DNA from: Chelativorans sp. Marseille-P2723
GTDB taxonomy: Bacteria > Pseudomonadota > Alphaproteobacteria > Rhizobiales > Rhizobiaceae
Assembly: GCF_902809845.1 (NCBI RefSeq)
Contig: NZ_CADDWI010000012.1
Coordinates: 20,001 to 64,800 of the forward strand
Length of the DNA stretch: 44,800 bases
Direction of reading: 5' to 3'
The notes under the pieces were generated by a model. That model saw only the letters and a program-made list of their open reading frames with translations, did no database searches and was not told where the DNA came from. Positions 9,573 to 19,931 of this stretch are shown piece after piece. Each line of letters begins with the position of its first letter. Positions within the stretch are counted from its first letter, which is position 1. A program made the position numbers and the translations under genes.

Positions 9573-9664
9573 AAGCCTCGATTTCCACGAGGCCGCAAGT
9601 ATGTCCGCGCGTCGCCAACTGGTGCGACAATGGAGTTCGGCCCGAAAGATAAGGTAGAAAAAAG

Positions 9665-9961
9665 ATGTCCCGCGCTTGCGAACTGACTGGCAAGGCCGTG
9701 ATGAGCGGCAACCATGTGAGCCACGCCAACAACAAGACTCGCCGCCGCTTCCTGCCCAACCTTTGCGATGTCACGCTAATGTCCGATGTGCTTGGGCAAA
9801 GGTTTCGCCTGCGCATTTCAGCCAGCGCCCTTCGCTCGGTTGAGCACCGGGGAGGGCTCGACGCCTTCCTCATGAAGGCCAAGTCAAACGAGCTTTCGCA
9901 GCGCGCTCGCCTCTTGAAGAAGCAGATTGCCAAGAAGCTCGGCGAACAGGCGGAAGCCTAA
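9665..9961 (+). CDS. rpmB: 50S ribosomal protein L28
   Basis: L28 is a small basic protein of the large ribosomal subunit. The 98-aa sequence opens with [10 protein letters not shown] and continues with [18 protein letters not shown], both characteristic of bacterial L28. The C-terminal half is slightly longer than in E. coli (78 aa), as usual in alphaproteobacteria. Only one cysteine remains in the N-terminal region, so this is not the zinc-ribbon (C+) form. The purine-rich run GGTAGAAAAAAG before the ATG serves as ribosome binding site. A GC-rich hairpin and a candidate preQ1 riboswitch fill the 55 bp between this gene and yhhQ. Confidence 0.97.
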
Positions 9962-9972
9962 TCATACCTTTG

Positions 9973-9989
9973 GGGCGGCCTTGCCGCCC
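9973..9989 (+). other. GC-rich hairpin between rpmB and yhhQ
   Basis: A perfect 7-bp stem (GGGCGGC with GCCGCCC, three-base loop) lies 11 bp after the rpmB stop. No U-run follows, so it is not a standard terminator. It directly precedes the candidate preQ1 aptamer and may stabilise the rpmB mRNA end or stack on the aptamer. Confidence 0.45.
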
Positions 9990-9990
9990 A

Positions 9991-10019
9991 CTGGTTCCAT
10001 AACCCAGGATAAAAAAATG
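9991..10019 (+). promoter_or_regulatory. Candidate preQ1 class-I riboswitch overlapping the yhhQ start codon
   Basis: The order is a P1 5' strand CUGG (9991-9994), loop UUC-CAU-AAC (9995-10003), P1 3' strand CCAG (10004-10007), then an A-rich tail GAUAAAAAA ending in AUG (10017-10019). This reproduces the preQ1-I layout: GG-UUC before the loop, AACCC at its end with C10003 where the ligand-pairing cytosine belongs, and an A-tract that docks into P1. The pseudoknot (CAU 9998-10000 with AUG 10017-10019) replaces the UAG/CUA pairing that I recall from the Bacillus example, as a covariation would. AGGA (10006-10009) is the Shine-Dalgarno sequence, so ligand binding would hide both it and the start codon. 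P1 is only 4 bp. The downstream gene is a queuosine-precursor transporter, the expected target. Confidence 0.75.
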
Positions 10020-10640
10020 CTTCGCGCAGGCAATGTCTTGCCCTTCATGGCCGCCATGGCGGCCATAGTGGTTGCGTCCAATTTTCTGGTTCAGTTTCCG
10101 TTCCAGCATTTCGGCCTTGGCGAGATTCTCACCTGGGGCGCCTTCACCTATCCGGTTGCCTTTCTCGTCAATGACCTGACCAATCGTCGTTTCGGCCCTG
10201 CGGCGGCGCGCCGGGTGGTGATGGTCGGATTTGCGCTGGCGGTTGTACTGTCGGTCTGGTTGGCCGGCCCGCGGATTGCGCTCGCTTCAGGAACAGCGTT
10301 CCTTTCAGCCCAGCTTCTCGATGTCGCGATATTCAACCGGCTGCGGAACAGCGCCTGGTGGCGCGCCCCACTGATCTCGTCGCTCGCCGGCTCAGTACTC
10401 GACACGGTAATATTTTTCTCGCTGGCGTTTGCAGCGGCATTTGCCTTCCTCGATACCGGCTTCGGTCAGCCCGACACCTCGCTCGGCCTGGCGGTTCCGC
10501 TTCTTGGCTTCGGGATGAATGTACCGCTTTGGGTATCGCTGGCGTTGGGCGATTTCGGCGTGAAGCTGCTGATCAGCCTAGCAATGCTGGCGCCGTACGG
10601 CGCACTTCTATCCTTTCTGCGGCCTGTCGAAGCCGCATAA
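10017..10640 (+). CDS. yhhQ: Queuosine precursor (preQ0/preQ1) transporter, VUT family
   Basis: The 207-aa inner-membrane protein has about six hydrophobic helices and matches the YhhQ/VUT-1 family, which imports 7-deazaguanine precursors used to make queuosine in tRNA anticodons. Recognisable segments are GAFTYPVAFLVNDLTNRRFG near residues 40-60, GTAFLSAQLLDVAIFNRLR, and APLISSLAGSVLDTVIFFSLAF. I chose the ATG at 10017, which lies at the end of an A-run seven bases after AGGA and forms one half of the pseudoknot of the upstream riboswitch candidate. An open frame extends to 9927 but overlaps rpmB and the RNA structures. Translation is probably repressed when precursor is plentiful. Confidence 0.92.
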   Translation: MLRAGNVLPFMAAMAAIVVASNFLVQFPFQHFGLGEILTWGAFTYPVAFLVNDLTNRRFGPAAARRVVMVGFALAVVLSVWLAGPRIALASGTAFLSAQLLDVAIFNRLRNSAWWRAPLISSLAGSVLDTVIFFSLAFAAAFAFLDTGFGQPDTSLGLAVPLLGFGMNVPLWVSLALGDFGVKLLISLAMLAPYGALLSFLRPVEAA

Positions 10641-18855: not shown

Positions 18856-19800
18856 CTAACCGTCGCCGCGAACTACTTGTGCCAGCGCGCCGATCTGTTC
18901 CAGATCGTAGGGTGTGGTCTGATAGACCTGATTGATCCAGTTGCCAAAGAGCAGATGAGCGTGCGAACGCCAGCGGTTAAGCGGCGGGCTCGTCGGATCA
19001 TCGTCAGGAAAATACCCGTGTGGCACACCGATGGACACGCCAGCGGCCACATCGCGCTCATACTCCTCCTTCAGCGAGGTGGAATCATATTCAATGTGGT
19101 TGAACATGTAGAGGCGGTTACCCGTCGTCTCGGTAAGCAGACACGGCCCCGTGACATCCGACTCCATCAGCACTTCAAGCCCCGAACCGGCAGGGATGTC
19201 AGCACGGCGCACTTCCGTCCAACGTGAGACGGGAATGGCAAAGTCATCCGAGAAGCCAGCCAGATAGGGAGAAGCCGGCGCATTGTTACGATGCCGGAAC
19301 ACGCCGAACGCCTTCTTTTGAAGCGTGTGTTTCGGAATTCGGTGGAAATGCCAGGCAGCGGCCATAGCACCCCAGCAAATGAAGAAGGACGAATGAACAT
19401 TGGATTTCGTCCATTCGAAAATACGGGACAGCTCATCCCAGTAAGTCACCTCCTCGAAGGGCAGCAACTCCACCGGGGCGCCAGTAACGATGAAGCCGTC
19501 GAACTTGCGGTCCGCCACCTCCTCCCATGTCTGGTAGAAGGAAATGAGATGGTCTTCCGGCGTGTTCTTGGCCCTGTGATTGCCGATGCGGATTAGTGTC
19601 AGTTCCACCTGCAGTGGCGTCGCGCCGATCAGCCGGGCAAACTGGGTCTCGGTGCGAATCTTGTTCGGCATGAGGTTGAGGAGCCCGATCTGCAACGGCC
19701 GAATGTCCTGGCGCAGCGCCGTTCCCTCGTCCATCACTGAGATGCCCTCGCGTACAAGCACGTCGCGAGCGGGGAGCTGGTCGGGAATCTTGATGGGCAT
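18856..19800 (-). CDS. metAA: Homoserine O-acetyltransferase, MetA-fold (MetAA)
   Basis: This enzyme activates the hydroxyl of L-homoserine, the first methionine-specific step. The 314-aa protein matches the MetA family exactly in numbering: nucleophile C142 in [12 protein letters not shown], and H235 and E237 in FNHIEYDS. Residue 111, which sets acyl-donor choice in this family, is glutamate (TGAPVELL). Glycine there gives succinyl-CoA use as in E. coli, and glutamate gives acetyl-CoA use. I therefore predict O-acetylhomoserine despite the common label succinyltransferase. The ATG at 19800 is chosen over one at 19818, which falls in the terminator U-tract. Expression is controlled by the upstream SAM-II riboswitch. 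Confidence 0.93.
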
Positions 19801-19811
19801 TCTGCGGCTCC

Positions 19812-19847
19812 AAAACAAAAGACCGGCGGCGAAATCGCGGCCGGTCT
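19812..19847 (-). terminator. Intrinsic terminator between SAM-II aptamer and metA (attenuator)
   Basis: GACCGGC/GCCGGTC stem (19821-19827 with 19840-19846) with a small inner GCG/CGC pairing, followed leftward by TTTTGTTTT (19820-19812). It lies between the riboswitch and the metA start codon, so it fits an expression platform working by transcription attenuation. Confidence 0.75.
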
Positions 19848-19861
19848 CAGCAGATTTGCAT

Positions 19862-19924
19862 CGCTCGGCCTTTTAGCAACTTGTTTTACGTGGCTGCAAG
19901 CCGACCGGCCAAATCACCACGAAC
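19862..19924 (-). promoter_or_regulatory. SAM-II riboswitch (S-adenosylmethionine aptamer) of metA
   Basis: On the minus strand the leader reads CGTGGTGATTTGG, then GGCTTGCAGCCACG, then AAACAAGTTGCTAAA-AGGCCG. This is the SAM-II consensus almost base for base. P1 forms between CGTGG (19921-19917) and CCACG, and the pseudoknot between the GGCC of the first loop and the GGCC after CTAAA. SAM-II elements are typical of alphaproteobacterial metA leaders. SAM binding should shut off methionine synthesis. Confidence 0.93.
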
Positions 19925-19931
19925 TGCAAGT

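Follow-up and report, generated by a model that had tools for sequence, protein, structure and literature searches.

A candidate minimal preQ1-I riboswitch whose pseudoknot may bury the yhhQ start codon in an alphaproteobacterial family

What governs the synthesis of the queuosine precursor transporter YhhQ in Chelativorans sp. Marseille-P2723? In the window analysed here, a stretch of 44,800 nucleotides from this organism, the 29 nt at positions 9991-10019 very probably constitute a translational preQ1-I riboswitch that controls yhhQ, that is closest to the type III subtype and whose P2 helix buries the start codon. A preliminary description of the letters had proposed a minimal preQ1-I riboswitch with the start codon in its pseudoknot. 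This proposal gains in silico support from a shared register with the E. coli yhhQ riboswitch, from compensatory changes in P1, from covariation in copies with a UG loop, and from an AUG that lies in frame with yhhQ in every copy of the same type. Beyond that description, we find that the known subtype closest to the element also controls yhhQ, that relatives carry a putative Shine-Dalgarno form of the element, and that pairing appears to extend into codon 2.

The element reads CUGG-UUCCAUAAC-CCAG-GAUAAAAAA-AUG, the last three letters being the start codon of yhhQ. CUGG, UUC-CAU-AAC, CCAG and an A-run ending in AUG all stand where they had been reported: UUC at 9995-9997, CAU at 9998-10000 and AAC at 10001-10003, followed beyond P1 by GAU at 10008-10010, six A at 10011-10016 and AUG at 10017-10019. 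In the numbering used below, 9991 is position 1, the presumed ligand-pairing C is position 13, the start codon occupies positions 27-29, and the base after AUG is position 30. Copies of the motif with C at position 18 are referred to as SD-type, the others as AUG-type. The parts of the element and its neighbours are as follows.

9991..9994, + strand: P1 5' strand CUGG, partner of 10004-10007, with compensatory changes among relatives
9995..10003, + strand: loop UUCCAUAAC, in register letter for letter with E. coli UUCCCUCAC
9998..10000, + strand: proposed P2 5' strand CAU, the anti-start-codon (E. coli has CCU with AGG opposite)
10003, + strand: presumed ligand-pairing C, counterpart of E. coli C14
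10004..10007, + strand: P1 3' strand CCAG, assigned from the letters and from relatives
10006..10009, + strand: Shine-Dalgarno-like AGGA, half within the P1 3' strand, with AUG 7 nt downstream
10008..10016, + strand: L3, the A-rich linker GAUAAAAAA, which aligns with AUAAAAAA of the Rfam PreQ1 model
10017..10019, + strand: AUG, start codon of yhhQ and proposed P2 3' strand, in frame in 115 of 115 AUG-type copies
10017..10640, + strand: yhhQ, queuosine precursor transporter of 207 aa (TIGR00697 match of 93 bits, cut-off 51)
9665..9961, + strand: rpmB (ribosomal protein L28), the gene upstream of yhhQ (profile match)
9972..9989, + strand: GC hairpin in the predicted leader fold, 1 nt before P1, possibly the rpmB end hairpin, lacking a U-run

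By its predicted architecture, the element is a class I preQ1 riboswitch, and its loop, gene and pocket place it closest to type III. The specificity base is present as C10003, directly 5' of the P1 3' strand; this C also occurs in the motif-bearing upstream sequences that were printed without a pattern, while later patterns required it. The rule of a C before CCC, invoked in the preliminary description, holds loosely, as C10003 is followed by CC and the run is CCC in all. Its other observations stood: the AUG opens a queuosine precursor transporter gene preceded by rpmB, placing the element at a gene of queuosine synthesis or salvage as is customary for preQ1-I, and AGGA shares letters with the 3' strand of P1. 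AUAAAAAA would supply the A-rich L3, and an H-type pseudoknot is supported in silico by compensation in P1 and by covariation between positions 7 and 30 (see below). A pseudoknot-free fold of the leader favours other pairings, but such a simple fold cannot display a pseudoknot. P1 comprises only 4 pairs, compared to the 5-6 bp stated for the three preQ1-I subtypes.

The closest known relative is the type III preQ1-I riboswitch of E. coli yhhQ, whose structure has been solved (PMC10622847; PDB 8FZA, cited in PMC11625349). The E. coli K-12 leader reads AUUGGG UUCCCUCAC CCCAAU GGUUAAUC AAAAAGG UACAAU AUG. According to the structural account, U11 pairs with A28, C10 with G29 and C9 with G30, C8 and U7 engage in triples, A13 touches U11, and C14 reads preQ1 (PMC10622847). 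The window has an equivalent of every base so described, each in its proper position (U5 U6 C7 C8 A9 U10 A11 A12 C13 and A26 A27 U28 G29), as seen when the loops of E. coli (UUCCCUCAC), the window (UUCCAUAAC) and its relatives (UUCCAUCAC) are set side by side, together with the tails (AAAAAGG in E. coli, AAAAAAAUG in the window). Within the P2 pairs there is a sole change, E. coli C10-G29 being replaced by A9-U28 in the window, whereby the buried AAGG, a Shine-Dalgarno sequence, becomes AAUG, a start codon. Outside the pairs, E. coli C12 corresponds to A11 in the window and to C in many relatives.

Judged from these alignments, both elements would share control of yhhQ, loop length and register, an A-rich L3, an H-type pseudoknot and a translational platform, and their loops have in common the UUC start, a U at the ceiling, and an A followed by the specificity C. 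In contrast to E. coli, the window carries AGGA at the 3' edge of P1 and represents a start-codon form found in one alphaproteobacterial family; moreover, L3 measures 9 nt in 114 of 126 motif-bearing copies, whereas the linker of type III is variable. Of the hallmarks of type III, UU after P1 (9995-9996) and AC at the specificity base (10002-10003) are present here; UU is absent from the 60 relatives with a UG loop, and position 12 is A in 103/126 copies. The type III loop is pyrimidine-rich, while UUCCAUAAC has A at the sites of E. coli C10 and C12. Lastly, the type III consensus buries AAGG as the 3' strand of P2 (PMC11625349), where the window has AAUG, and the element is therefore best viewed as a start-codon variant nearest to type III rather than as a canonical member.

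Features of other known systems recur as well. Type II preQ1-I riboswitches (Tte, Bsu) likewise have AC before the P1 3' strand, one C as specificity base and an A-rich L3 (PMC11625349), but possess a longer loop and either partly bury the Shine-Dalgarno sequence (Tte) or act on transcription termination (Bsu). In SAM-II-like direct-occlusion riboswitches, ligand pocket and expression platform also form one pseudoknot, with the ribosome-binding site described as the portion that lies within P2 (PMC10907184); in the window, the AUG itself would be the P2 strand. Occlusion of a start codon is already known: in V. vulnificus add and a T-box, the ribosome-binding site and AUG are hidden in a separate sequester hairpin (PMC10907184). 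There, the occluding hairpin is an alternative one outside the aptamer, whereas here the start codon would be a strand of the ligand-stabilised pseudoknot itself, an arrangement that the accessible text of PMC10907184 does not describe. The words 'start codon' do not occur in PMC10622847 and PMC11625349, passages of PMC4448311, PMC2258182, PMC3766115 and PMC13273304 contain nothing on the element, and Brucella abortus and E. coli bear no PreQ1 mark in PMC9495176.

A scan with the Rfam PreQ1 covariance model (RF00522), as the preliminary description had suggested, recovered the expected register GGUUC...CCC...AUAAAAAA with three loop positions deleted, at 10.9 bits and hence below the gathering score of 39. 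None of 15 loci gave a gathering match either, and for the E. coli type III leader nothing was reported at E<=10. Because the model does not find the E. coli element, its miss in the window is uninformative. We attribute to chance the further low-score Rfam matches at this place, among which were mcrA, CRISPR-DR66 and snoRNAs. Our search of the open-access literature returned no title on a Rhizobiaceae preQ1 riboswitch or on one that buries a start codon; McCown et al. 2014, who reportedly defined type III, may list alphaproteobacterial members.

How widespread is this element? Run on the genome from which the window comes, a covariance model of 24 sequences, window included (R1), gave a single match of 51.6 bits, the runner-up reaching 14 bits. 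In the family, it matched 361/394 genomes at E<=0.1, about 355 of them below 1e-4 and six weakly (0.008 to 0.043), and yhhQ (TIGR00697) was present in 372/394. Relatives that keep yhhQ without the element, which the preliminary description had named as evidence that would count against its reading, do exist, both outside the window's family and in certain genera within it; yet comparison of the match tables places a strong element match in 353 of the 372 yhhQ-bearing family genomes. Among the first 80 yhhQ loci fetched, 47 have the element; in all of them, it ends with an ATG in the reading frame of the match and contains CAU, although the search pattern left the loop free. The 33 loci without it include Devosia, Roseibium, Cohaesibacter, Ancylobacter and one 'Rhizobiaceae group'. 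Across 97 of 114 AUG-type copies, those of equal length, mean pairwise identity was 92.8% in the 29 nt (a figure somewhat inflated, as the copies were chosen by a pattern fixing part of the motif), compared to 30.0% over the preceding 30 nt and 36.2% over codons 2-11. The same picture of conservation emerged from the upstream sequences of the 80 loci printed without a pattern.

Comparisons across loci draw on 176 distinct yhhQ loci, 126 with the motif and 50 without, which do not form a random sample: they comprise the 80 nearest by sequence, the 30 best TIGR00697 matches, 30 genomes chosen for a weak or no match (among them 13 of the 33 no-match genomes), 30 selected for their intermediate scores or their genus, and a phylum draw. 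The pattern behind the 126 copies required CAU, the specificity C, four P1 pairs and UG, so that the constancy of these features is by construction, and five elements from outside the family count as 'no motif'. An A-run of 6-8, A of AUG included, is present in 126/126 copies, the pattern having demanded at least 4.

Beyond the family, a model of 12 sequences with E. coli as one of them (R2) matched 20/349 Pseudomonadota genomes at E<=0.01, 15 in the window's family and 5 in others. The latter five elements lie outside the class, directly 5' of yhhQ, and have the loop UUCCCU(C/A)AC and the tail AAAAAGG. In 289 genomes of the class, the convincing R2 match was that in the window only; another match from this draw (G1101, E=0.05) had no yhhQ anchor and was rejected. 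In 297 genomes of the order, R1 gave 32 matches at E<=0.1, of which 12 were strong and all in the window's family, while the other 20 (E>=0.005) were taken as chance. These large draws used stricter filters at which weak matches are lost, and R1 missed the SD-type elements of two genomes (G102 and G174), so that absence outside the family is not proven; within the limits of the searches run, the start-codon form appears only in the window's family.

Within the family, 15 of the compared loci carry yhhQ without the motif. Seven of them come from small genomes of three genera, where yhhQ is kept and the element decayed or gone, one (L128) displaying a remnant, CUGGUUCCAUUACC, with a broken P1. 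Of these small genomes, G006, G091 and G168 are devoid of QueA as well, and G093 and G111 possess it. In L126 (G005), the element (P1 CCGG/CCGG) lies 222 nt 5' of the conserved core and in frame, implying either a YhhQ with a long N-terminal extension or a start elsewhere. One genome (G269) holds two strong copies of the element on contigs C30 and C32, along with six TIGR00697 matches, reflecting duplicate yhhQ or contamination. Seven copies (L037, L057, L078, L190, L191, L193 and L194) contain an additional nucleotide that separates the P2 strand further from the P1 3' strand, for example CAUCAACCCAG and CAUCACCCCAG, and the linker at this place hence tolerates insertion.

Do the proposed helices covary? 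The search for compensatory P1 changes, envisaged in the preliminary description, was successful: CUGG/CCAG is changed to CUAG/CUAG in L184 and L192, which differ in genus code and loop class, and to CCGG/CCGG in L126. In an alignment of 12 sequences including E. coli (A5), P1 and P2 together are 95.5% paired, against 32-45% when the partner is slid, and double changes occur at four pairs, three of which depend on the single E. coli row. The strongest pairing signal in these sequences is the link between positions 7 and 30. Among the 126 copies, UGC loops go with G30 (22/22) and UGG loops with C30 (38/38), while UUC loops never have G30 (0/66). Position 7 complements position 30 in 60/60 UG-loop copies (22 C-G, 38 G-C); as a control, it is complementary to positions 31-38 in only 4 to 26 of the 60. 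P2 in the UG-loop copies would thus be a 4-bp helix, NCAU/AUGN, which in the 49/60 copies whose AUG is the start enters codon 2, so that the RNA would dictate the first letter of that codon. In the UUC class, the window's own, the 7/30 pair is not formed, and C7 is free like C8 in E. coli.

The UG-loop variants (17 of 25 distinct ones, of equal length) are 100% paired, partly by construction given that the pattern demanded four P1 pairs, CAU and UG, as opposed to 25-48% after sliding. Two of five measures were not above shuffles in these variants: double-change pairs were as high in 108/500 shuffles and further pair types in 498/500. On trees, both sites change together, each of them 5 times in the UG class; the supported independent pairs number 3 and 4 (p 0.25 and 0.125), too few for significance. 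As the CAU/AUG core is invariant within AUG-type copies, its covariation rests on the exchange of A-U for the C-G of E. coli and the non-family elements, and on the 7/30 pair next to it.

The same aptamer core seems to serve two expression platforms. SD-type elements make up 11 of the 126 copies, and in 11/11 C18 lies opposite G0 and the tail reads AUGGA. The AUG in this tail is out of frame in 10/11, and in-frame yhhQ starts are located 13 to 16 nt further downstream; in L136, the AUG runs into a stop after five codons, L118 and L177 have nearer start candidates as well, and in L135 the AUG is in frame, with a GTG at +15. The GGA of these copies is likely a Shine-Dalgarno sequence, and the element would then act as a normal type III riboswitch. 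Among the 115 AUG-type copies, 114 have G at position 18 and one has A; AGGA occurs in 92 (AGGU in 14, AGGC in 5, AGGG in 2, others in 2), and the spacing between the in-frame AUG and the conserved core takes 12 different values. The Shine-Dalgarno platform would accordingly bury AUGGA and add a G0-C18 pair to P1, and the start-codon platform would bury AUG, usually with AGGA at the P1 edge. Intermediates exist: 11 AUG-type copies have a UGC loop and keep AUGG, with AGGA present and the AUG in frame. A tree built from the YhhQ of 103 of the 176 loci calls for at least three changes between platforms; many of its branches are weak, and it cannot tell the direction of change. Within the family, the two platforms thus appear to interchange. 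Together, this makes it probable, if less firmly so than the riboswitch assignment itself, that we are dealing with a start-codon-sequestering preQ1-I subtype, near-universal at yhhQ in one large alphaproteobacterial family, in which the RNA determines the letter that opens codon 2 in 49 of 115 AUG-type copies and platforms have been switched with intermediates persisting.

Which ligand would such an RNA sense? It is conceivable, albeit unlikely, that the same fold naturally responds to preQ0, queuine or another 7-deazaguanine rather than to preQ1. E. coli YhhQ prefers to import preQ0 (PMC10622847), and the loop classes of the family differ (UUC, UGC, UGG), so pockets may differ too. The window's genome, however, has no match to QueF, found in 8/14 control genomes, and preQ0 should hence be useless to the host; QueA is present (415 bits), so queuine is not the sole usable precursor; and the UUC class resembles E. 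coli in its loop letters, the E. coli riboswitch favouring preQ1 ~138-fold (PMC10622847). Three matches to the QueC model in the window's genome, two of them just over the cut-off, were identified by NCBIfam as MnmA, GuaA (GMP synthase) and NadE (NAD synthase). Lack of QueF and of a true QueC in the presence of QueA fits preQ1 salvage; without queF, preQ1 is described as the only precursor salvageable via QueA (PMC5372724).

QueA occurs in 195/199 family genomes. Of the four without it, G182 also lacks yhhQ, and G006, G091 and G168 have yhhQ but no intact element. Seven QueA-bearing yhhQ genomes (G004, G056, G082, G093, G111, G124 and G162) are likewise without an intact element, and the three genomes named before are likely close kin, so the association of QueA loss with element loss is only suggestive.

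Even with preQ1 as the ligand, a preQ1-I riboswitch could act via the AGGA in P1 and general occlusion, CAU-AUG pairing being a by-product of where the start happens to lie. AGGA does overlap the highly conserved P1, and the published subtypes operate by full, partial or indirect occlusion of the Shine-Dalgarno sequence (PMC11625349). Yet all 60 UG-loop copies pair the base after AUG, which occlusion of AGGA does not need, and P2 departs from that of E. coli precisely by the C-G to A-U exchange. We consider this reading slightly less probable still than a different ligand, and retain a riboswitch that would bury the start codon itself.

The surroundings of the element hold further candidates for regulation. 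The hairpin at 9972-9989 was not called in a terminator scan. In one relative (L027), an intrinsic terminator with a U-run was called immediately 5' of P1, in which case yhhQ expression may be driven by rpmB read-through or by a promoter that a sigma-70 scan does not detect. In the window, a scan for the sigma-70 consensus only revealed no promoter-like site in 9600-10100. The sole match in an Rfam gathering scan of the whole window was a SAM_alpha (SAM-II) riboswitch at 19853-19930 on the minus strand (74.2 bits, gathering 36), upstream of an ORF at 18856-19818 on the same strand that NCBIfam assigns to homoserine O-acetyltransferase MetA (NF047918, 466 bits, cut-off 460.5).

Might the conserved stretch be no riboswitch at all, and instead bind a regulatory protein or a small RNA, or enhance ribosome binding around the start codon? 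Poly-A before AUG can enhance initiation, and P1 and the A-tract hardly vary, a trait that protein sites may show. Compensatory changes in P1, the swap between positions 7 and 30, and the base-by-base correspondence to a riboswitch of known structure at the same gene all argue against this view, as does, weakly, the lack of an intact element in the three yhhQ-bearing genomes devoid of QueA, and we regard it as very improbable. A DNA-level element (part of an operator or promoter) or chance conservation around the coding start, for which the shortness of the element and its place between two genes might speak, can practically be dismissed given the sharp conservation edges, the covariation of RNA pairs and the outcome of the sigma-70 scan.

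How, then, would the riboswitch operate? We infer that preQ1, paired to C10003, sits atop P1 (CUGG/CCAG), with the A-tract in the P1 minor groove, so that P1 and A-tract together would make up the floor of the site. This bound fold would stabilise the P2 pseudoknot between CAU (9998-10000) and AUG (10017-10019), whose closure would bury the start codon while half of the AGGA Shine-Dalgarno sequence is held in P1. With preQ1 abundant, the 30S subunit could not engage the AUG, and uptake would stop. When preQ1 is scarce, the short P2 would open, and AGGA, 7 nt before AUG, would direct initiation, leading to synthesis of YhhQ.

If true, a ligand-stabilised helix would be built from the start codon itself, not from the Shine-Dalgarno sequence, predicting control of initiation without full sequestering of the anti-Shine-Dalgarno partner. 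At 29 nt, the element would match or undercut that of E. coli, described as the smallest natural preQ1 aptamer. The fact that the Rfam PreQ1 model reports neither of them exposes a blind spot. In many relatives, codon 2 of yhhQ would be under an RNA-imposed constraint. And with both platforms and their intermediates in one family, the re-wiring of an expression platform would become testable by one or two base changes.
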